Positions 3,211-52,173 of a stretch of 64,000 bases of DNA are shown piece after piece. Source of the DNA: a virus; IMG/VR virus record IMGVR_UViG_3300044699_000032, positions 1-64,000 of that record. One strand, 5' to 3'. The notes below the pieces were generated by a model, which was given only the letters and a program-made list of their open reading frames with translations, made no database searches and had not been told where the DNA came from. A program made the position numbers and the translations under genes. How positions within the stretch are numbered: position 1 is the stretch's first letter; each line of letters opens with the position of its first letter.

Positions 3211-4625
3211 ATGTCTAACGTCTCTCAAATCACGGTGGCGCTCGCGAAAGCCCGGACGCAACTTCTCATGTCTGGAGTGTCCGGCGCTTTCCATGGTGCG
3301 CTTCGCAATGTCGCTTGTGCCCGTCATTCGTCCCGATATCGAAACCGCCGCAACGGACGGACGGCATTTTTTCTACAACGCAACATGGTTCGACACGTTG
3401 TCGGAGCGTGAACGCGTTGGCGTTCTCGTTCATGAGATCAGGCACCTAATCGCGCTACACCATTGCCGCCGCAACGGCCGCGAGCTTGTCGGAATTCAAT
3501 ATCGCGGCGGACTACGCGATTAATCCCGGCATCGTCGCGGATGGTTTCAAGCTTCCTGCAAGTGTTCTGATCGATCCGCAGTATGCCGGTTTGAGTGCGG
3601 AAGAGATTTTCCGCTTGCGGCAGGTGCAGCAGCAACAAGCGGCGTCATCGGAGGGCGACGCGTCCGATGATAGCGGCGAGCAATCGGACGAAAGCGGCGA
3701 GACCAGCGAGGATGAAACCGAAGGCGATCAAAGCGACACCAGCGACAAGCAAGGCGAGACCGAAAGCGAGTCGTCCGATGTCGACGGCAACGGCGATACA
3801 GAGTCGGAGAAAGGCGACGGCAAAGGCGACGGCGAACAAGGCGACGACTCCGAGGGCGAGGGCGAGGGCGACAACGCCAGCGACAACGCCGCGCCTATCT
3901 CTGATCCCGGTTCATGCGGCGGGATTATGGACGCCGCGCCAACGCAAGACGCTGCAGCGATGGCGCAAGCGGAGTCAGATATCGATCAGAGAATCCGACA
4001 AGCAATTGCCGTTGCGCGCAAGGCGAATGGTGGCGAATTGCCTGCGGACCTTGCGCGGCTTGTCGGAGAGTTGAAGGCACCTAAGCTAGACGCGCGCGAC
4101 ATGCTGCGGCGCTTTCATCGATCGCAGCATTCAAAAGTCATACGCATGGACGCGACCGAACAAGCGCTATCTGAGTCACGGCTTGACACTGCCGTCCCTA
4201 ATCTCAGATCGGCCCCGGTCACATCGTTGCGCTTGTCGACGTGTCCGGTTCACTTTGGTCGGATGCCGCACAAGCGGCTTTGACCAGTGAACTTGCAAGG
4301 CGCACTCGACAATGGTGCAGCGGACCAAATCACCATTGTCTATGCCGACGTCGACGTGACCGGATCAGCCGAATATTTTCCCGGCGATCGAATTGAAGTT
4401 CAGGCCGAAGGCGGCGGCGGTACCGATTTCGCCGCGCCGCTGCAATGGGTGGCTGACAATTGCGAGAACGTTGCAGCGATCCTTTACCTAACGGACATGC
4501 AAACATGCGACTACGGAGATGAGCCGGACGCGCCGCTGCTGTGGCTTGTTTGCGGCGATCCGCGCGAAGCGAAATACTGGGTAGAGCGCGCGCCGTTCGG
4601 TGAGGTAATCTATATCGATGAATGA
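3211..4625 (+). CDS. Metallopeptidase-like/VWA protein (frameshifted)
   Basis: Starts at 3211 behind the repeat leader. With indels near 3290, 3490, 4205 and 4300 the frame runs to 4625, about 470 residues. In order: an N-terminal domain with the zinc-binding motif His-Glu-Ile-Arg-His (about residue 80), a very acidic Ser/Asp/Glu/Gly-rich linker (about 3640-3895), a helical segment, and a VWA domain with all MIDAS parts: Asp-Val-Ser-Gly-Ser, Gly-Gly-Thr-Asp and Leu-Thr-Asp. This order is that of the putative metallopeptidase plus DUF2201 VWA-like family. It is the natural partner of the MoxR ATPase next door. Cleavage targets and the role in infection are unknown. Confidence 0.8.
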
Positions 4626-6887: not shown

Positions 6888-7412
6888 TCACGCCCCCTTC
6901 GGTCCGGCGGTCACCACGGCCGGAAATGGATCGTCGCCGGGCTCGGGCTCGACGGCGATCGCTTCGGGCTGGTCGGCGGACCGCTCGATCTCGGCGGCCA
7001 GCGTCCCGAGATTCACCTGACCACCACTCGTCTCCGTGTTGGCTGCGTCGAGGCACTTGAGAATTATCGCGCCGGCGGTGTGGAATTGTGAAACCAGATT
7101 GTTCAACTTGAACCTGTAAGCGTCCCGCTCGGTCATCAGTCGTTCCTGCTGCCGCTCGATCGCGTCCGTCAGATCGGTCGTGCGCTTTTCGAGCCGCTTG
7201 ATCTCGGCTTCCGCCATCAGCGCGCGCCGCCGCCAGTCGTCCATTTCGCGGCCGAGCCGCTCGATCTCGTCGACTTGGTCCAGATGCCGCTGCGCAACCC
7301 GCAACGCCTCTTCGGCGTAGACCGCCTCGGTATTGTTCCGGCGCGGCGGCTCGGGCGGGCGCGGCGGCGCGGGCATCGGCGTGACTTTCGGCAGCGTGCG
7401 TTTGTCGTTCAT
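6888..7412 (-). CDS. Coiled-coil protein (174 aa)
   Basis: The N-terminus is proline-rich (residues 8-25). Residues about 30-115 are a long charged helix with heptad-like spacing, almost certainly a coiled coil. The C-terminus is acidic with Glu-Pro-Glu-Pro. Function unknown; it lies among replication and recombination genes and might organise or tether one of those proteins. Confidence 0.65.
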   Translation of the reverse strand: MNDKRTLPKVTPMPAPPRPPEPPRRNNTEAVYAEEALRVAQRHLDQVDEIERLGREMDDWRRRALMAEAEIKRLEKRTTDLTDAIERQQERLMTERDAYRFKLNNLVSQFHTAGAIILKCLDAANTETSGGQVNLGTLAAEIERSADQPEAIAVEPEPGDDPFPAVVTAGPKGA

Positions 7413-7430
7413 GGTGCTTTCCTTCCTCGG

Positions 7431-8006
7431 TTAAAATTCGAATAACGATAGCTGTCGCAAGGCGATCGGCGTCGCGTTCGTTTTTTCTTTTGGGCCGTTT
7501 TCATTGCTCTTCCGCGCGCCCTCTTGCTCGTCGAGCCATTCAGCGAACAGTTTTTTCCCTTGGTTCGATTGCACGAACCGCAACCGAGCCGAAGATTTCG
7601 AGCGTGCAAGCGCGCCCAATCCTTTTCGGTGCGTGGGGCTTCCAAGTGTTTCGATTTGAATGTCGCGCTCGTTCATGAACTTGTGGCCACAGCCTTGGCA
7701 CAAGCCTTCCGGCGTCATCATGGCGCGCAGAACAGGAACCAGCGCGCGATAGTTCATGGCCGTCCAAAAGAAGTCGAAGCCGGTCGAGGCTTTCGCCGCC
7801 GCTGATCGTGCGCGTTGTTCGATGATTGCCTTCGGTCGGTCGGCGTTCTTTTTTTCGTTGCGAGCTTTTTGCTCGCAGTCACGACAGACGGGGCTGAACC
7901 ACACTTTCGTGGCAACAGTACTGTTGCCACGCTTTTTGACGTGAAACCGCGAGTGATGTTTCCACTCATGGCATTGTTTACACTGCCGCTCGCATGGTCG
8001 CGCCAT
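7431..8006 (-). CDS. HNH-type nuclease with N-terminal zinc finger (frameshifted)
   Basis: The N-terminus has two Cys pairs (Cys-Lys-Gln-Cys and Cys-Arg-Asp-Cys) forming a zinc ribbon. The second half has Cys-Gln-Gly-Cys-Gly-His-Lys-Phe. Switching frame between about 7640 and 7565 restores Ile-Gln-Ile-Glu-His, then Leu-Gly-Cys-Gly-Ser-Cys-Asn-Arg-Thr-Lys-Gly, the end of an HNH/zinc-binding core, so two compensating indels are likely. The protein ends in a Leu-Ser-Leu-Phe-Glu-Phe motif resembling a sliding-clamp binding peptide (inference). A 24-bp perfect palindrome lies in its 5' third. Confidence 0.65.
   Translation of the reverse strand: MARPCERQCKQCHEWKHHSRFHVKKRGNSTVATKVWFSPVCRDCEQKARNEKKNADRPKAIIEQRARSAAAKASTGFDFFWTAMNYRALVPVLRAMMTPEGLCQGCGHKFMNERDIQIETLGSPTHRKGLGALARSKSSARLRFVQSNQGKKLFAEWLDEQEGARKSNENGPKEKTNATPIALRQLSLFEF
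7908..7931. repeat. 24-bp perfect palindrome
   Basis: CGTGGCAACAGT followed directly by its reverse complement ACTGTTGCCACG, with no spacer. It is inside the HNH-type gene and is followed on the plus strand by CTTTTTG. Confidence 0.8.
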
Positions 8007-12812: not shown

Positions 12813-13144
12813 TGGGGAGAAAGCCTGCTACCAAATCCGCGAAGATCAGCCTCGCTGATATCGCCCGATCGCTCAACATGTCGCCCAAGACTGCGCGTCG
12901 CAAGATGCGCGCCTACTGGCATGGACAGCGGCAAGGCGGCTGGACGTTCGACGCATCGAAGCGCAAGGAAATCGTCGCGGTGCTGGAGGGGAAAATGTCA
13001 TTCACCGTTCTTGAACTGATCGCCGTCGAGGCGGCATTGGAGTTTGTGCATAAGGTCGGCAGCTTCGACGAATGGCCGAAATTTCAATGGGACGCCTTGC
13101 GACGGGCAGAGGCGAAGATCAAGCGGTTCACGGGAGTCGCGTGA
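12809..13144 (+). CDS. HTH protein (111 aa)
   Basis: Two ATGs (12809, 12812) follow GGGAGG within the previous gene. The basic N-terminus leads into an HTH: Leu-Ala-Asp-Ile-Ala-Arg-Ser-Leu-Asn-Met-Ser-Pro-Lys-Thr-Ala-Arg-Arg. The C-terminal 45 residues starting at an internal Met-Ser-Phe look like a separate helical unit, so the gene may be a fusion of two small phage proteins. It may bind DNA near the downstream recombination genes. Confidence 0.6.
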   Translation: MMGRKPATKSAKISLADIARSLNMSPKTARRKMRAYWHGQRQGGWTFDASKRKEIVAVLEGKMSFTVLELIAVEAALEFVHKVGSFDEWPKFQWDALRRAEAKIKRFTGVA

Positions 13145-13148
13145 TGAA

Positions 13149-14039
13149 ATGCGGGAAACGCTGATGATCACCGAGCCCGGTTTTTACCCCGACATGCCGA
13201 TCGAGGAATATCATTCGGACCCGTGTCCGAAGCCGTCGCTGAATCAATCGCTGGCGAAGGTGTTGCTCGACAAGTCGCCGTTGCACGCTTGGTATCAGCA
13301 TCCAAGGCTCAATCCGAATTACGAGCGCAATACCGATAAACAGTTTGATCTCGGCACGGCCGCGCACGCGATGCTGATCGGGCGAGGCAAGGAAATCGTA
13401 CCGATACCGTTTGACAACTGGCTAACGAAGGCGGCCAAGGAAGCGCGCGAGGAAGCCGCGTTGGCCGGCAAGCAAGCTGTGCTGCAATCGCAGTATGAGC
13501 GCGCGGCTGAAATGGTCGCCACCGCCCTCTTGCAACTCGACGCGCGCGGCCTGTCCGGCTTGTTCAATTCGAAGCTCGGTGCCGGCGAACTCGTCATGGC
13601 CTGGGAAGAGTCCGGCGTATGGCTTAGGCAGATGGTCGATTGGCTCACTGCCGATGAACTGACGTTCGTCGATTACAAATCGACCAATCTGAACTCTGCC
13701 CCGCAAAATCTCGGTCGCATCATGCATAGCGCGGGCTGGCCGATCCAAGCTGCAATGGCTCGTCGTGGGCTGGACGTATTGTCACCAGACACCACGGGGC
13801 GGCGGCACTATCTGTTTATTCTTCAAGAGACAGTGCCGCCGCACGCTTTGCAAGTTTGCGAGATGTCCGAAGCCGTGCAAACGATGGGCAGGAAGATGCT
13901 CGCCGTGGCGGTTGAGATTTGGGAACGGTGCATGGCCGAAAATAACTGGCCTGCTTATCCGTTGCAAATCCAGCGTCCCGAGTTGCCCGCATGGGCAGAA
14001 AACGAATGGCTCGCAAGAGAGATCGAGCGCGAGACATGA
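13149..14039 (+). CDS. PD-(D/E)XK exonuclease (DUF3799-like)
   Basis: About 296 residues; ATGs at 13149 and 13164 are both possible starts. The N-terminus (Pro-Gly-Phe-Tyr-Pro-Asp-Met-Pro, then Pro-Ser-Leu-Asn-Gln-Ser) and Leu-Gly-Thr-Ala-Ala-His-Ala-Met-Leu are typical of RecB/RecE-like phage nucleases. The active site is visible as Arg-Gln-Met-Val-Asp-Trp followed by Thr-Phe-Val-Asp-Tyr-Lys-Ser-Thr, the D...DxK core. It probably resects double-stranded DNA ends for the annealing or ATPase proteins encoded downstream. The 3' end is followed within 14 bases by the first pentamer array. Confidence 0.8.
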   Translation: MRETLMITEPGFYPDMPIEEYHSDPCPKPSLNQSLAKVLLDKSPLHAWYQHPRLNPNYERNTDKQFDLGTAAHAMLIGRGKEIVPIPFDNWLTKAAKEAREEAALAGKQAVLQSQYERAAEMVATALLQLDARGLSGLFNSKLGAGELVMAWEESGVWLRQMVDWLTADELTFVDYKSTNLNSAPQNLGRIMHSAGWPIQAAMARRGLDVLSPDTTGRRHYLFILQETVPPHALQVCEMSEAVQTMGRKMLAVAVEIWERCMAENNWPAYPLQIQRPELPAWAENEWLAREIERET

Positions 14040-14052
14040 TCACACTTTACAT

Positions 14053-15005
14053 CGCGGCGCGTCGCGGCGCTCCGCATCGCGCCGCAGCGCATCGCGCCGC
14101 GCCTCTCCGCATCGCCTCGCGACGCAACGCCTCGCGTCTCACCGCCCCGCGCCGCTACGCTTCGCAACGCCACGCACCTCCCCGCGACGCTCCGCTGCTC
14201 GCCGCATCGCACCGCAGCGCATCGCAACGCATCGCATCGCAAGTTTTCGTTTTTGTCCTTTCTTTTTCACCGCGCCGCGTCGCCGCGCAACGCAAGCCCT
14301 CGCGGCGCAACGCCTCGCATCGCAGCGCACCGCGACGCTACGCTTCTCTACGCCACGCATCTCGCCACGTCGCTGCGCGACTCTTCGCGTCGCTTCGCAG
14401 CGCGACGCTACGCAACGCCCCGCTACTCGGCTCGACTCCCTGCAACGCTTCGCAGCGCAACGCCCCGCTGCGCCACTCTGCTCGACGCCGCGCATCGCAT
14501 CGCCGCACCCCGCAACTCGGCTCGGCGCTTCGCAGCGCCACGCACGGCAGCGCAAACGCAACGCATGTTTCATTTGTTTGTATTTTCCGGCGCATCGCTC
14601 TACGCGACGCAACGCCTCGCCCCGCCGCGCCTCGCGTCGCGACGCCCCTCTCCACCGCTCGACGCACCGCGTCGCAACGCCACGCTTCGCATCGCACCGC
14701 AGCGCAACGCCACGCGCCGCCGCGCACCGCGGCTCTCCACAGCGCTTCGCAGCGCCCCGCAGCGCTTCTCCACGCAACGCAACGCAAGTTTGGTTTGTCA
14801 ATTTTGCCCGCGCCTCGCACCGCGTCTCCCCGCCTCGCTGCGCCCCGCACCGCAACGCAACGCAACGCTCCTCACCGCATCGCAGCGCCACGCCACGCCC
14901 CGCGTCTCTCCGCAGCGCCGCGCAGCTCTGCGCTTCGCAACGCCTCTCTGCGCAGCTCAACTCAGCGCCCCGCATCGCAACGCAACTCGATTCAACCCAA
15001 CGCAA
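14053..15005 (+). repeat. CGCNN pentamer array A (four blocks)
   Basis: Almost every fifth base starts a CGC (sometimes CTC) followed by two variable bases. Blocks: 14053-14242 (38 units, no slip), 14271-14555 (57 units, no slip), 14591-14787 and 14809-15005 (about 39 units each, one 2-base slip each). T-rich linkers of 28, 35 and 21 bases separate them. Block ends resemble each other (CGCAACGCAACGCAA or similar). The array runs up to the ribosome site AGGAG of the next gene. The long open frames it produces on both strands are a by-product of the repeat pattern, not genes. Confidence 0.9.
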
Positions 15006-15018
15006 CAGGAGAACTAAA

Positions 15019-15606
15019 ATGCGACAGGTTAAGGTCTTTATCGAAAACATCCCCGGCAGTCCCTATTCGCAATCGGCACAGCACGACGCGCCCATGCTCG
15101 ATCGCGAAAGTCACGACGATTACGACCGCCGGACATGGCGCAAGAAATGCACGGTCGGCCGCGACGGCGTCGTTGCGATCCCGGCCATGGGGCTCAAGCA
15201 ATGCCTCGACACAGCCGCGTTCAAACTCGGTTTGAAAGTACCGAACCGACGCGGCGCAACGTACAAATCATTCTTTGCCAGCGGCGTGATCTGCGATAGC
15301 GATGTGCCCATCAGCAATGGGAAGCCGCTCAAGCCGGATGACGCCGAGATGGTCACGATCAGCGCAAGCAGCACGGGCGAACGCGGCGGCGGCAAACGTG
15401 TCCCGCGTCGTTTTCCGGTGTTTGATAAATGGCACGGTGTTGCGAGTTTTACGATTTTGGACGATCTAATTACCGAAGCGATTTTCGAGCACCACTGCAA
15501 AACTGCCGGTATGGTCGTTGGTATTGGTCGCTTCAGACCGGAAAAAGGCGGCACTAACGGCAGATTTAAGGTTTCGAAATTCGAGTGGGCCGATGTAAAA
15601 ATTTAA
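15019..15606 (+). CDS. RAMP-like (Cas5/Cas7-type fold?) phage protein, 195 aa
   Basis: ATG at 15019 follows AGGAGAAC. The order of elements is: an opening beta-strand with Pro-Gly-Ser-Pro-Tyr-Ser-Gln-Ser, a helix introduced by Ile-Pro-Ala-Met-Gly-Leu-Lys-Gln (compare the Pro-Gly-Ser-Ser-Leu-Lys-Gly helix start of RAMP proteins), Arg-Val-Pro-Arg-Arg-Phe-Pro-Val, and a C-terminal glycine-rich loop Gly-Ile-Gly-Arg-Phe-Arg-Pro followed by Gly-Gly-Thr-Asn-Gly-Arg-Phe. I remember this as a recurring phage family near recombination genes. The RAMP resemblance is my own inference and needs structure prediction. Flanked on both sides by CGCNN arrays. Confidence 0.55.
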   Translation: MRQVKVFIENIPGSPYSQSAQHDAPMLDRESHDDYDRRTWRKKCTVGRDGVVAIPAMGLKQCLDTAAFKLGLKVPNRRGATYKSFFASGVICDSDVPISNGKPLKPDDAEMVTISASSTGERGGGKRVPRRFPVFDKWHGVASFTILDDLITEAIFEHHCKTAGMVVGIGRFRPEKGGTNGRFKVSKFEWADVKI

Positions 15607-15612
15607 CAACGC

Positions 15613-15772
15613 CGCGCCGCATCGCTTCGCAGCGCAGCGCAACGCCGCGCAACTCGCCGCTTCGCAACGCAACGCAACGCCTCACGGCACCGCTCAACGC
15701 GGCTCTCCGCACCGCTCCGCAGCGCCCCGCAGCGCCGCGCCTCGCATCTCGTCTCCGCGCCACGCATCGCAA
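15613..15772 (+). repeat. CGCNN pentamer array B
   Basis: 32 units in perfect phase over 160 bases, filling nearly all the space between the stop at 15606 and the ribosome site of the gene at 15800. Same unit pattern as array A, with CTC variants and a final CGCAT-CGCAA. Confidence 0.9.
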
Positions 15773-15799
15773 GCCCACTTGATTTTGAAGGAATGTCAA

Positions 15800-16312
15800 A
15801 TGGCAAAAACAATGTTTGAACGATCCAAAGAAACCGAGCAGCTTATCAATTATCTGCGCTTGAACGACAAGGGCGCACTCGTAACGTACACCGATCTGTC
15901 GACGTTGATTGGCGACAAGGTCGACGCGCGCTATGCAAAACTGATCTCCGCTCGAAAACTTTTGCAGCGCGACCATAATCAGGTTTGGGTTTGCGTACAG
16001 CCGCGCGTCGGAGTGCAACGACTGACCGACCTCGAAATAGCGGAACGCTTGCCTAAGTTTTGGTTGATGGGCGCGCGTAGCAAGTTGAAGCGCGGCGGCA
16101 CCCAAGCCGAAGTCGTAGAGTTACGCCAGCTTGACGCCGATCAACAGACGCGGTTTGGCGTTGATTGCATTCAACGTGAGTTGGCTTTCGACGCCTTGTC
16201 GCGCGCGACGCGACGCAAGATGGAAAGGGTAGCGCGCGGCACATCCAACGATTTGCCCGCGTTTACGGCGATTGAATGGGCGATCTCTTTAAGCCCGAAG
16301 AATCTGAAATGA
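15800..16312 (+). CDS. Winged-helix-like protein (170 aa)
   Basis: ATG at 15800 behind GAAGGAA. The N-terminal 80 residues have a winged-helix look: Leu-Val-Thr-Tyr-Thr-Asp-Leu-Ser-Thr-Leu-Ile-Gly, then Ser-Ala-Arg-Lys-Leu-Leu and Arg-Leu-Thr-Asp-Leu-Glu-Ile. The rest is helical and basic (Arg-Arg-Lys-Met-Glu-Arg). The layout recalls small phage proteins of unknown function near recombinases. Its stop is immediately followed by array C. Confidence 0.55.
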   Translation: MAKTMFERSKETEQLINYLRLNDKGALVTYTDLSTLIGDKVDARYAKLISARKLLQRDHNQVWVCVQPRVGVQRLTDLEIAERLPKFWLMGARSKLKRGGTQAEVVELRQLDADQQTRFGVDCIQRELAFDALSRATRRKMERVARGTSNDLPAFTAIEWAISLSPKNLK

Positions 16313-16316
16313 ACAA

Positions 16317-16898
16317 CGCCGCGCTCCGCGACGCAACGCGACGCCTCGCAACGCGACGCATCGCAGCGCATCACGCCGCCACGCCACGCATCTCACCGCC
16401 TCGCGCCGCAGCGCTACTCGTCGCAGCGCCACTCTCCGCGCCGCATCGCGTCGCGTCGTCCCGCGTCTCGCCGCTTCGCATCGCGTCTCTGCGCCTCGCA
16501 GCGCCCCGCCACGCCCCGCAACGCATCTCCGCGCCCCGCACCGCGGCGCAACGCCCCGCCGCTCTCCGCAGCGCGACGCAACGCAACGTTTTGGTTTGGC
16601 AATTTCGCGACGCGCCGCATCGCCGCTCGCCGCTTCGCCTCGCGTCGCCACGCCTCTCGGCGCTTCGCAGTGCGCCGCCACGCTACGCCACGCCGCGCTG
16701 CGCACCTCAACCGCATCGCTGCGCTCCTCGCCGCTTCTCCACGCCCCGCAACGCAACGCAAGTTTTGTTTGGCGATTTCCCACCGCGCCGCATCGCCTCT
16801 CATCGCCACGCCGCGCGTCGCTACGCCCCTCTTCGCGACGCTTCGCGCCGCCACTCTTCGCTGCGCCCCGCTTCTCCACGCCCCGCAACGCAACGCAA
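16317..16898 (+). repeat. CGCNN pentamer array C (three blocks)
   Basis: Blocks 16317-16586 (54 units, no slip), 16606-16761 (31 units plus one inserted base) and 16784-16898 (23 units, no slip). The linkers 16587-16605 and 16762-16783 share a GTTTTG(G)TTTGGC(A/G)ATTT core with the last linker of array A. The array ends CGCAACGCAACGCAA just before GAGGAATGAT and the ATG at 16915. Confidence 0.9.
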
Positions 16899-16914
16899 CG
16901 TTCTGAGGAATGAT

Positions 16915-17943
16915 ATGACCGCACCTGTACGCAAGTTCGAAGACAAGCCGGCGGTTCGTGAGCAAGTTCCAATCTTGGTCGGCTGATGGGGCCGAGTGGA
17001 ATCGGGCAAGACCTATTCGGCCCTGCGGCTCGCGACCGGCATTCAGCAAGTGGTCGGCGGGGACATCTATGTCGTCGACAGCGAAGCAAGACGAAGCCTG
17101 CACTACGCCGATGATTTCAAATTCCAACACATCCAGTTTGATCCGCCGTTCGGCTCGCTCGATTATCTCGCGGCCATTCGTCATTGCGTGGCAAAGGGCG
17201 CGAAGGTTGTGATCATCGACTCGATGTCGCATGAGCACACCGGCCCTGGCGGCTATCTGCAAACGCAAGACGCCGAAGTAGAGCGCATGGCTGGCAACGA
17301 TATGGCCAAGCGTGAGCGCGTGAAAATGGCCGCTTGGATCAAGCCGGCGTACCTGCGCGGGCAGATGATCAGCGGCATCCTGCAACTCAATGTCGATTTG
17401 ATTTTCTGTTTCCGGGCGAAAGAAAAGATCAAGCCCAAGCCCGGCGGCAATCCGATTGAACTCGGATGGATGCCAATCGCTGGCGACGAACTGCTGTTTG
17501 AGATGACAACGAATTGCCTGTTGTTGCCGAAGGCGGGCGGCGTGCCGACGTGGAGATCGGACCAGATCGGCGAAAAATTAATGATGAAGCTGCCGAAGCA
17601 GTTCGAGGCGGTGTTTGAGAAAAGCAAGCCGCTGGATGAAGAGATTGGCCGCAAGCTTGCCGAGTGGGCGAAGGGCGGTGTGGCTAGGACTGCGCCGGTA
17701 TCGCCACCGGAGGAAGATTTTGACCAAGCCGAGATGGACGTCGGTGATGAAGTGGATTCCGATCTGGTCGCGGCGCACATGGAGCGGTGCGCTGCAGCGG
17801 CGGCGCGGGGATGGGAGGCGTTGCGGATTGAATGGGAGAGCACGCCGGACCCGATCGCGGACATCTTGCGGGGGCCGCATTTGCCGCGATGGAAAGCGAT
17901 AGCAAAGGCGGCGAAGCCTGCCGGGGAACAGGAGTCCGTGTGA
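16915..17943 (+). CDS. RecA-fold/AAA phage ATPase (Sak4-like, frameshifted)
   Basis: ATG at 16915 with GAGGAA upstream. The first 24 residues end at a false stop (16984-16986). An indel there leads into Met-Gly-Pro-Ser-Gly and Gly-Lys-Thr-Tyr-Ser-Ala-Leu-Arg-Leu-Ala, a Walker A motif. Walker B is Val-Val-Ile-Ile-Asp-Ser-Met-Ser-His-Glu. Later come Leu-Ile-Phe-Cys-Phe-Arg-Ala-Lys-Glu-Lys and Pro-Thr-Trp-Arg-Ser-Asp-Gln. About 342 residues with an acidic C-terminal tail. This matches phage AAA/Sak4-type single-strand annealing ATPases and pairs functionally with the exonuclease upstream. Confidence 0.75.
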
Positions 17944-37002: not shown

Positions 37003-37631
37003 ACCACGACATGCGACTTGTAGGGGGCGAGCAGTGTTTTCACTTCCGGCGGCATCCCGCCACCCTGCCCCACGCCACCCACCCAATAATCGTAGGTTGA
37101 TACGCCGGGGATGGCGACGCCCTTGATCATCGGATCGCGCGTCTTGGCGAAGTAGCTTTGTTTCATGAGCAAGAGGCAGGCTTGTTCAAGATCGTGCGGC
37201 AAGGTCTGCAGCAGTTCATAGCCAGCGCTGTACGTGACGATGATCCTGCCGCCGGTCCAAGCGGAGCGATAAGCGCCACGCACTCGATACAGGAGCCCGT
37301 TGCTGCTTTGAAACTCATACTGATCGGCCGGCAAGACTTGATTGGATTCCGTTATCGACACCACTTCGCTGATCGGATAGCGCGACAGGATCAGCGCGTC
37401 GTCGCATGATTGCCAGCCAAGATTGAAATGGTCGGCGACGGTTTCTAGTTGAAACACCCGACCGCATGCCGACGCGATCGCGACCGACGTTTGCGTGATC
37501 TTGGTTTGCAGCCATGCGTCTTGCTCAGTGTCGGTGATCCCCAATTCCAGCTTAACGGTTGCGAGCGTCGTCAGATCGAGCGATGCGCCCGGCATGACGA
37601 TGACGGTTTTGAACGGCGATGCTGACATCAT
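36999..37631 (-). CDS. Head-tail connector (gp6-like, about 210 aa)
   Basis: Two adjacent start codons (37631, 37628). Contains Thr-Val-Lys-Leu-Glu-Leu-Gly-Ile-Thr-Asp and Asp-Ala-Trp-Leu-Gln-Thr-Lys-Ile, the standard opening of phage gp6-like DNA-packaging connectors, then Arg-Tyr-Pro-Ile-Ser-Glu-Val and Ile-Thr-Tyr-Ser-Ala-Gly-Tyr-Glu-Leu. Should attach below the portal. Confidence 0.8.
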   Translation of the reverse strand: MMSASPFKTVIVMPGASLDLTTLATVKLELGITDTEQDAWLQTKITQTSVAIASACGRVFQLETVADHFNLGWQSCDDALILSRYPISEVVSITESNQVLPADQYEFQSSNGLLYRVRGAYRSAWTGGRIIVTYSAGYELLQTLPHDLEQACLLLMKQSYFAKTRDPMIKGVAIPGVSTYDYWVGGVGQGGGMPPEVKTLLAPYKSHVVV

Positions 37632-40381
37632 GACCTCGGTTCAGATGGCGTTCCTGGCGGCCTCGGCGTTGCAACATTAGCGGCTGATCTCGGATCAGAT
37701 GGTGTTCCCGGTGAGCGAGGTGTTGCAACGTTAGCGGCGCTTCTGTTCGATGCCTCATCGTACCACTCACGCCGGGGAACATTTCCTATTACACCCCCTC
37801 GGATATGCGGAACAAAGAACACATCGGCATCAGCATAATGATTGGCAAACAAATGCTGATCATCCAAGTTCCCAATAATGGGAATCTTAAATATGTCAGC
37901 ATCAACGAACGTATTCGGTAGCAGCACCAGCGACACAACAGGAGTGAAGAATGCGTCGCTGTCCACATAGCGCGTCGGCAACAGCGGATTGACCAACACC
38001 ACGATCGGCGCAAAGAATGCATCAGCATCGGAATACTTTGTTGGCTCCACACTGATGGTGATAGTGGGAGCAAAAAACGTATCGGTATCGACGAATAGAT
38101 TAGGTTGAACAGTTGCCGTGCCACCCTGTGCGGTGGGCGTGAAAAACGCATCTGCATCGGTATATAAGCTTGGCTGCAGCGCACGGACCGACAGCACAAC
38201 GTGTGTGAAGTATGTGTCCGTGTCTGCATAGAGCGCCGATGCAAGGTTGACCGCACCGGGTGCGACCACATGATTAAAAAAGGCGTCAGCATCAGTAACC
38301 AGTGCCGGTGCTAGATTTTTGATCCCCGCAGCATCTAGCACCTGCGTAAAGAAGGCATCCGCATCGGTGTGCGGCGTCGGCTGCAGATTTTGATCTGCTG
38401 CCAGGAACAGAGCGGCAAAATCAATAAGGCCGGTATCAACAAACTCTTCATCAACAACCAGTTCCAGAATCGGATGCGCGGCAGTCGGTTCGGGTACAAT
38501 CGCAATAACTGTGTGCGTGAAGATTAGATCTATATCGGCAAATAATATTGGCCGCAGATCGAGGATTACGTCATCAGCGGTCGTGGAAATAAAGCTTCCA
38601 AGTTCTGAGGCAAAAATAACGGGGTCATAAATTGAAAAAACTTGTTCAACCAACGCAGGCAGCACTACATCGCTCGGCACTACATGCGTCAGGAACGCAT
38701 CGGTATCAACATGCAATGCCGGCGCTAAATTAACTGCGCCGACCCCTACGGTGGGCGAATAGAACGACTCTGCGTCTGTAAATAGTGCTGGTGCAAGATC
38801 GACACTGCCAAACGACACCGTATGAGTGAAAAATGCGTCATCTGCTGCGTGGAGCGTCGGCGCAAGATTGACCGCGCTGACCCCCGCGGTAGGCGAATAG
38901 AACGACTCTGCATCGGTAAATAATGGTGGCGCAAGGTCGACACTGCCGACCCCCACGGTGTGCATGAAAAATGCGTCATCCGCTGCATAAAGCGATGGTG
39001 CAAGATTGACTGCGCCGACCGCTAAGGCGTGCGTGAAGTAGGAGTCCGCATCATCAACCAGTGTTGGCGCAAGATTGAGCGCGCCAACATTCGCAACGTG
39101 CGTGAAGAATGAATCAGTATCTTCAAATAGCGCTGGTGCTAGAGCGACACCGCCGGGCGCTATGACGTGTGTGAAGTACGTTTCGCCATCGATAAAAACA
39201 CTGTCTTGTGTCAACGATTGCGAAGGAACATCCGCCGGACGTGTGAAGCTCCCTAACTCTTCTGCAAAAATTACCGGATCATAAATTGAGAAGACTTGAT
39301 CAATGTAATCCGCGACTGCCGCGGCTGCCAGTGTATGCGTGAAGAACGCATCGCTGTCAGTGTAAGAAGTAGTTGGGCTTAAATTCTGTGTGCCTCCTGT
39401 ATACGTGATGACGATAAGGCCGGATGCGCCCGCGCCCGCCGTCTTGGTGCCTGCTGCAACGCGAGTGCCGCCAGCACCGCCACCGCCACCGCCATAGTTG
39501 CCGCCAGCCGCCACCGCTGGTGACGGGCGTGCCGCCAGTGTTAGAGTTGGCCCCGCCGCCACCGCCACCACCACCCGGTCCACCGGTCGCGCTGTCGGAA
39601 GGTCTGGGTATAGACCGCATTGACACCGCCAGCACCGCCGGACGTGGTCGCGCCGCTAACAGCGGAGAAGAAACCGCCGCCGCCGCCCTTGCCGCCAGAG
39701 ACACCCGCGCCGCCCGCTGGCGTGCCCGATGTGCCGCCCGCGCCACCTGTGCCACCGCCTGCCGTTCCATTAGCTGTGCTGGCGTTGCTTGCACTGCCGC
39801 CATTGTCACTGGCACCGCCACCGCCGCCACCGAACAATGTTGTTGTACAAGCGCCGCCGGTACCGCCAACACCGGTTGGACCACCGGCACCGCCGCCGCC
39901 ACCGCCCGAGCCGGTGACAGCAGCGACCGCGCCACCCGTTCCACCATTCTGTCCGAGCGACGCGGTGTAGGTCGGTACCGTTGGCGTGCCGACCGTGGTC
40001 GTAGTCGCGACGCCACCCACGCCGCCTGCAGTGTCTGTGCCGCCAGCGCCGCCGCCTTCGCCCGACTCCACATAGCGGCAGTTCGCGAACGAAGCTGAAC
40101 CCCAGCAAGTAGCGACGCCGGTCGTTTTGACCGTCGTGCTCGGGTTGTCGATCGACACCAAGAACGCCGTGGTGGACGCCAACGCACCCGACGTTTGCGT
40201 AAGCAACACATGCGCGCCACCGCCACCGCCCGGACCAGAACGGTACGTGGTAACACCTTGTGTTGCCAGTACCACCGCGTCCGCCGCAGCCAATGAGCCG
40301 AACGGTATGGCCCGCATCAGTCCAGCCGGCCGGACGGCTGTAGGGGGACGTACTGCCGTTGACCAGGAAGACGGTAGGCAA
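37628..40381 (-). CDS. Glycine-rich and Asp-Ala-Asp-Ala-Phe-Phe repeat protein (frameshifted)
   Basis: About 917 residues across breaks near 40320 and 39570. A TTG at 40381 behind GGAG gives Met-Pro-Thr-Val-Phe-Leu-Val-Asn-Gly-Ser. The first third is extremely glycine-rich (Gly runs with Thr and Ala). The rest is about 19 copies of a 20-25 residue unit centred on Asp-Ala-Asp-Ala-Phe-Phe-Thr-His and ending Val-Asn-Leu-Ala-Pro-Ala-Leu. A rigid repeat rod is likely, perhaps a head fibre or tail appendage. The last 40 residues contain two copies of Arg-Ser-Ala-Ala-Asn-Val-Ala-Thr-Pro. Confidence 0.65.
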
Positions 40382-51299: not shown

Positions 51300-52173
51300 T
51301 CTTGCCGTCCTTGCCGTCCCGTCCATCCCGACCTCGCCGCGATGCCAAATCCCAATCATCGCCCTCACGCGGCGTGCTTTGTGGCTTGTCCTTGCGCGCG
51401 ATCCAAGTCGATCCGCCATAGGTGACTTGATCGCCTAGCAAATACTCTTTTCCACTCTTGAAGCTGCCGCGGTGCAGCACGATAGGGAATGTCAGGGGCG
51501 ACCATTTGGTGATCTCGCCCTGCTTGAAACCGAAGTTGAAACTGCGATCATCGATCCGTTCGATGGTGAAGTCGTCGAGCGAGAACCCGTCACGGCCGTC
51601 CTTGCCAGGAGCGCCGTCCTTGCCGTCCTTGCCGTCCGCACCGTCCTTGCCGAGCACCGGCCCGAGTGTATGGACCGCCCCGTCCGTCAGTGTCACGACC
51701 AGTTGACCCTCGCGATTGATGACCGCGCCAGCGAGGCCAATGCCGTCCGCACCCCGCTCGCCTTGCGCCCCGTTAAAGCCGTCCTTGCCGGCCAACCCCG
51801 GCTCGCCGCGCTCACCCTGCGGCCCCGCTTCGCCCCGCTCGCCGACGCCTCCCGGCTGACCCGGCTCGCCCTGCGGCCCCGCCGCGCCGTCCGCGCCCCG
51901 CTCCCCGGCTGGCCCCGCCTCACCGGCCGGTCCCTGTGGCCCCGGCTCGCCCGATAGGCCGCGCTCGCCCGGCGGCCCTTGCAAGGGCTCGGCCGCCTTG
52001 AGCGCGGCAATCTCTGCCCTTAGCTCGGTGATGACTTGCTGCATCGGTTCGATCGCCTTGGCGACACATTCGGCGATGTGATCCCGCACGACGGGCGCGA
52101 ACCCTGCCGCGACCGCGCTGATAGCGGCGTGGTTCAATCCGTTGCTGCTTGTAGAAATTTGCGTAACTCCCAA
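51238..52173 (-). CDS. Collagen-like structural protein (311 aa)
   Basis: After 65 residues of helical N-terminus come long Gly-X-Y runs (Gly-Pro-Pro-Gly-Glu-Arg-Gly and Gly-Lys-Asp-Gly blocks). A small beta-domain near residues 225-285 has Gly-Asp-Gln-Val-Thr-Tyr-Gly-Gly-Ser-Thr-Trp and ends in a second collagen stretch. Phage collagen-like proteins form trimeric rods such as tail or head fibres. Directly downstream of portal. Confidence 0.75.
   Translation of the reverse strand: MGVTQISTSSNGLNHAAISAVAAGFAPVVRDHIAECVAKAIEPMQQVITELRAEIAALKAAEPLQGPPGERGLSGEPGPQGPAGEAGPAGERGADGAAGPQGEPGQPGGVGERGEAGPQGERGEPGLAGKDGFNGAQGERGADGIGLAGAVINREGQLVVTLTDGAVHTLGPVLGKDGADGKDGKDGAPGKDGRDGFSLDDFTIERIDDRSFNFGFKQGEITKWSPLTFPIVLHRGSFKSGKEYLLGDQVTYGGSTWIARKDKPQSTPREGDDWDLASRRGRDGRDGKDGKNGERGPQGEPGIPHWQHGKT

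Follow-up and report, generated by a model that had tools for sequence, protein, structure and literature searches.

What are several hundred five-base units, each with three nearly fixed and two variable positions, doing in the gaps between phage genes? The window, by which we mean the whole 64,000-nucleotide stretch analyzed here, belongs to a 67,219-base IMG/VR record that carries tailed-phage genes for terminase, portal, major head, and tape measure proteins. The original prediction singled out such units within it and knew of no described element of this form, but one had been reported: the Viral Interference Programmable Repeat (VIPR), presented in 2026 as a phage-borne, CRISPR-like ancestor and proposed to be older than CRISPR (PMC13142463). 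We consider it highly probable that the locus is a VIPR system of an uncultivated tailed phage, built on a C[GT]C framework. According to the main text of PMC13142463, the guide RNA (vrRNA) comprises pentamers that alternate GGY with NN, followed by a tail; it pairs through the NN bases only, such that two target bases are read and one, usually the wobble base, is skipped. RNA is read by Vipr RNPs five bases at a time, and the published vrRNAs have 9-16 repeats. The same text distinguishes seven VIPR types, type II being found in Escherichia phage SUSP1 and a Pseudomonas fulva prophage, and its experiments cover a few GGY systems.

The eight blocks of phased CGCNN or CTCNN pentamers in three gaps that had been predicted are real; the array stands, and its count of about 313 units is corrected to 307. 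Every block is on the plus strand between 14053 and 16898, and the units occupy gaps at 14053-14990, 15613-15772, and 16317-16898. The features of the locus are as follows.

13044-14039, plus strand: exonuclease VIII-like gene of a recombination module (phrog_412, E 3.9e-63; Pfam DUF3799, E 1.3e-8)
14053-14242, plus strand: array block 1, 38 C[GT]CNN units, vrRNA-like
14243-14270, plus strand: T-rich tail or linker 3' of block 1, fitting the recurrent junction of CGCAA with CG..TTT..(A)TTTC
14271-14555, plus strand: array block 2, 57 units, a few of which depart from the consensus while staying in phase
14556-14597, plus strand: CGCAA units and T-rich tail or linker 3' of block 2
14598-14787, plus strand: array block 3, 38 units, terminus CGCTT CTCCA CGCAA CGCAA CGCAA
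14788-14810, plus strand: T-rich tail GTTTGGTTTGTCAATTTTGCCCG 3' of block 3
14811-14990, plus strand: array block 4, 36 units, with a triple CGCAA handle inside, after 8 units
15019-15606, plus strand: vipr, predicted RAMP-fold protein of 195 aa (profile, AlphaFold2 and Foldseek, phrog_4652)
15613-15772, plus strand: array block 5, 32 units, two of them off-consensus at 15683-15692, in phase
15800-16312, plus strand: accessory gene in a vap-like position, 170 aa, AlphaFold2 model with a winged helix at residues ~10-80
16317-16586, plus strand: array block 6, 54 units
16587-16605, plus strand: tail CGTTTTGGTTTGGCAATTT 3' of block 6
16606-16761, plus strand: array block 7, 31 units, one-base phase shift at ~16711
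16762-16783, plus strand: tail GTTTTGTTTGGCGATTTCCCAC 3' of block 7
16784-16898, plus strand: array block 8, 23 units, terminus CGCTT CTCCA CGCCC CGCAA CGCAA CGCAA, abutting the ribosome-binding site of the ATPase gene
16914-17943, plus strand: downstream AAA/RecA-type ATPase gene (phrog_1366, E 4e-40; AAA_24), reading frame disrupted close to the Walker A motif

Across the 307 units, the first position is C in 98.7%, the second is G in 82% or T in 16%, and the third is C in 99.7%, with CAC, TGC, and GCC or GGC as rare variants. The fourth and fifth positions carry 1.94 and 1.99 bits, close to maximal entropy, and all 16 dinucleotides are represented at NN. When the whole window was scanned for C[GT]C at period 5, ten phased runs were obtained, exclusively within 14053-16898. 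The longest perfect run has 38 units, compared with a maximum of 7 in 500 dinucleotide shuffles, and the suggested check of autocorrelation at lag 5 gave 0.60-0.68 in blocks 1 and 2 versus 0.26 for the window. The claim that phase is retained while two of five positions vary was borne out as well: the off-consensus units of block 5 remain in phase, and block 7 contains a one-base shift.

The blocks share an anatomy at their 3' ends. Most terminate in two or three CGCAA units, and the longer ending CGCTT CTCCA (CGCCC) CGCAA CGCAA CGCAA is common to blocks 3, 7, and 8, the same CTC included. In the inner blocks, a T-rich stretch of ~20 bases follows (CGTTTTGGTTTGGCAATTT and variants), and the junction of CGCAA with CGATTcgTTTTGGCATTTCC recurs in relatives, in several copies per phage. 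The final block of each gap abuts the ribosome-binding site of vipr, the accessory gene, or the ATPase gene. Since the triple CGCAA handle lies inside block 4, after 8 units, the sequence suggests that this block holds two guides. Structure prediction gave neither a pseudoknot nor a strong fold for the short tail; of five RNA segments folded in silico, two were less folded than their shuffles (z ~+2) and three were near zero to +1. The locus had no match in Rfam.

The flanking genes are those named in the original prediction, i.e., exonuclease VIII, a RAMP-like protein, a predicted winged-helix protein, and an AAA/RecA-type ATPase. The upstream exonuclease VIII-like gene is probably outside the VIPR system. 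The accessory gene is a conserved neighbor of vipr; the model of its product has weak Foldseek matches to winged-helix proteins, and neither SUSP1 Vap1 nor the product encoded at the same position in LESphi2 is detectably homologous to that product. A scan of the neighbors against Pfam, PHROG, and PADLOC returned no cas match. Around the Walker A motif of the ATPase gene (16914-17010), one base is missing and one is extra such that the frame is lost and then restored; this is probably a sequencing error. Elsewhere in the window, two HNH/endonuclease VII-like genes lie close to the locus (3486-4283 and 7431-8006), a 651-aa open frame with a weak minor tail protein match contains tandem repeats of 54 and 138 bases (37631-37738 and 38720-39024), and nine-base repeats on the minus strand at 51595-51918 resemble a coding stretch for collagen-type Gly-X-Y.

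On the basis of profile comparison and a predicted structure, the product of 15019-15606 is a Vipr homologue. Its family profile retrieved one significant PDB chain, 36pp_D ("SUSP1 Vipr protein", E 7.5e-9), and hhalign gave E 6.6e-17 against LESphi2 Vipr and E 2.4e-10 against SUSP1 Vipr, the SUSP1 gene being taken as ALH47069 from its location between arrays. The protein had no Pfam match and hit phrog_4652 in PHROG with E 1e-6. The AlphaFold2 model, made with 45 homologues (pLDDT 93, pTM 0.86), matched type III Csm3 and type VII Cas7 in Foldseek (E 2e-7 to 1e-5, TM ~0.5-0.58). The RAMP glycine-rich loop is present: in the 45 homologues, G168, G170, R173, G181, and R182 do not vary and G178 hardly does, and the loop aligns with the loops of LESphi2 and SUSP1 Vipr. 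In a tree, one branch with 100/100 support separates the Viprs of C[GT]C loci from those of GGY loci. Genome contigs searched with the alignment yielded no relative.

The association of the arrays with this protein was evaluated across phages. IMG/VR contigs were first collected by the array pattern alone and then searched for the Vipr family protein. Among contigs with diverse NN in C[GT]CNN arrays, 46 of 49 encode a Vipr homologue, with differing arrays adjoining this same RAMP gene, the point that the proposed pattern search was to check, whereas none of the 31 contigs with ordinary low-diversity CKCNN repeats does; both sets were defined by NN diversity ahead of the protein search, except that one or two of the 49 (L128, L135) came via the protein search. 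De novo detection of period 5 revealed GGY/NN arrays at the same location in SUSP1, LESphi2, and VSe11, and those of LESphi2 and SUSP1 adjoin vipr. Two relatives of the window Vipr accompany other frameworks, C[AG]CNN in L135 and CTC only in L059; on this comparison, the central position of the fixed trinucleotide drifts among phages. GGN-type arrays with a very divergent Vipr homologue occur at L237:8085-8990. At L128:5783-5982 and 7386-7540, stretches of 13 and 6 array units are duplicated in tandem, and such duplications may show a route of array growth. When applied to genome contigs, the array pattern found one microsatellite only; this pattern is insensitive, recovering 6 of the collected loci, and the result therefore does not establish absence from cellular genomes.

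Two guides of close relatives could be decoded, spanning 9-10 units. The relative G002 (L002), whose Vipr is 67% identical to that of the window, has the guide AT TC TT AT CC TG AT AC AC preceding a CGCAA handle. Read antisense with a one-base skip, it decodes to the RecT motif VVMQGINEI. Across all IMG/VR it has three exact matches, two of which are recT in the wobble phase, and the recT sites of seven relatives match it at 17-18 of 18 bases, compared with 13 of 18 for G002's own recT, which reads TIMVGINEI. A ten-unit guide of contig G004 (L007) decodes to CLTFNIGLE*. With one mismatched base masked, an IMG/VR scan with this guide returned nine contigs, eight of them at the homologous final codons CLTVNIGLE* of one conserved gene; all eight sites are antisense with the skip at wobble, their wobble bases vary, and each matches at 19 of 20 bases, although these contigs were selected by the scan pattern and conservation among them is not independent of that selection. 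G004's own site, CLSCNIGME*, matches at 17 of 20. The two are reciprocal, the G004 guide matching G002 and the G002 guide matching G004. The G004 guide comes from an orphan array on the minus strand of L007 at 10585, distant from vipr and on the opposite strand, which terminates in a hairpin (GGGCAGACC..GGTCTGCCC).

Control searches among the collected contigs with skips of 0, 2, and 4 gave at best 16 of 20 and 15 of 18 bases; matches at skip 3 are the arrays themselves and were set aside. Shuffling the unit order of the G002 and G004 guides left no site at one mismatch or fewer in these contigs. When all guides were used against the collected contigs, a weak excess was seen at skip 1 (13 matches versus 6, 1, 13, 3, and 3 in shuffles), and a wobble-phase test with all guides gave no clear difference from shuffles. 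Codon positions 1 and 2, mostly antisense, account best for the composition of NN, an assignment that agrees with the skip rule but is confounded by base composition. Judged from the matches, two guides, both from close relatives within this clade, conform to recognition with a one-base skip at codon wobble.

Other candidates were rejected or left ambiguous. IMG/VR scans with 8-9-unit guides from blocks 4, 5, 8, and 3 yielded no convincing target for the window's guides: the matches were incoherent in gene and codon phase, and one inside L237, a phage with its own VIPR, had its skip off wobble. A perfect ten-unit match of an L128 guide to L185 is treated as possibly due to chance because its skip falls at codon position 1. 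A G030 guide matches the window accessory gene in 8 of 8 units and its own genome at 15 of 16 bases, which is ambiguous.

The first alternative is that the arrays are DNA sites, such as protein-binding iterons that are phased on the helix and serve replication or recombination. Their position in a recombination cluster, between the exonuclease VIII and AAA ATPase genes, and a strict period near half a helical turn would suit such sites, but NN of near-maximal entropy decodes, in relatives, to antisense gene targets in wobble phase, and the arrays track the RAMP gene and, in the loci examined, always point the same way with respect to it; we regard DNA sites as very unlikely. A second alternative, that the arrays form leader RNAs serving only titration or autoregulation of the RAMP protein and target no other DNA, could draw on the blocks that run right up to the ribosome-binding sites of three genes (vipr, accessory, and ATPase) and on the G030 match to the accessory gene. 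We deem it most improbable, as the two decoded guides fit the genes of relatives better than their carriers' own copies, and targeting in trans was shown for VIPR in the main text of the preprint (PMC13142463). Neutral slippage or a base-calling or assembly artifact, to which the 13-unit duplication in L128 and the indels in one neighboring gene might point, has a negligible probability and is refuted as a sole explanation by the 46 of 49 linkage to one gene beside differing arrays in independent contigs and its absence (0 of 31) from ordinary CKCNN repeats, in addition to the intact phase with varying NN and a run of 38 units where shuffles reach 7.

The five-base repeats are thus most likely guide-RNA genes of a VIPR system. 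The proposal that spacing is selected by a protein or RNA contacting every fifth base fits, because the RAMP gene next to the arrays encodes a Vipr homologue and RNPs of Vipr step five bases; the working molecule, however, is in all likelihood a guide RNA and not an element acting as DNA, and the two variable bases, which had been called nearly free, carry the information as a gapped target address. The computed support comprises Vipr homology and fold, array-Vipr linkage, the handle and tail anatomy, and the one-base-skip wobble targets of two relatives' guides.

Compared with type II VIPR, the locus shares a small, phage-borne protein whose profile and predicted RAMP fold mark it as a homologue; arrays on the same strand as vipr, in long stretches between genes, whose pentamers combine three fixed with two hypervariable bases; a 3' tail after the repeat tract; one-base-skip targets at wobble (here for two guides of relatives); and, as a putative counterpart of vap, a small, predicted DNA-binding-like accessory gene adjoining vipr. 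It differs in that C[GT]C takes the place of GGY as fixed motif, which does not exclude VIPR membership, the blocks hold 23-57 units, above the published 9-16, and have CGCAA handles inside, the T-rich tail is short and without SUSP1-type structure, the accessory protein is not homologous to Vap1, the locus is inside an exonuclease/ATPase recombination cluster, and its Vipr falls in a clade apart from the GGY clade (100/100). The predicted fold resembles Cas7/Csm3 RAMPs of Class 1 CRISPR (types III and VII), as does the notion of a backbone protein that coats a guide RNA with periodic unpaired positions, but the window locus is without a repeat-spacer array, adaptation genes, or Cas10, Cas5, or Cas6, and its period is 5 with two bases paired rather than 6 with five paired. 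Simple slippage repeats are likewise tandem with a short period, whereas here NN varies freely with the phase intact and linkage to vipr is exclusive. Against the main text of PMC13142463, we conclude that the locus is VIPR with a variant framework, not a new kind of element.

By analogy with the published systems (PMC13142463), the arrays would be transcribed together with vipr and the accessory gene, giving vrRNA guides, and the RNA would be processed into separate guides. Vipr subunits may coat the RNA in steps of five bases, keeping C[GT]C unpaired and presenting NN, and the NN pairs would read two of every three DNA target bases with the skipped base at codon wobble. DNA binding would, on the same precedent, silence genes of competing related phages, the carrier's own target copy being altered; the window's own guides would then also have targets.

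On balance, though with considerable reserve, we lean toward a separate type of VIPR, borne by uncultivated phages, that has a C[GT]C framework (in relatives also C[AG]C or CTC only) and long multi-guide arrays, whose guides are antisense to recT and the CLTVNIGLE* gene of sibling phages and whose carriers' altered sites would confer self-immunity, making a code for exclusion of siblings by phage. The results point to a gapped code that can operate on a second framework as well, in a large phage clade. The locus and its relatives supply readable natural targets with apparent self-escape mutations, and it becomes directly testable how general the code is, how long arrays are processed into guides, and where guides originate.
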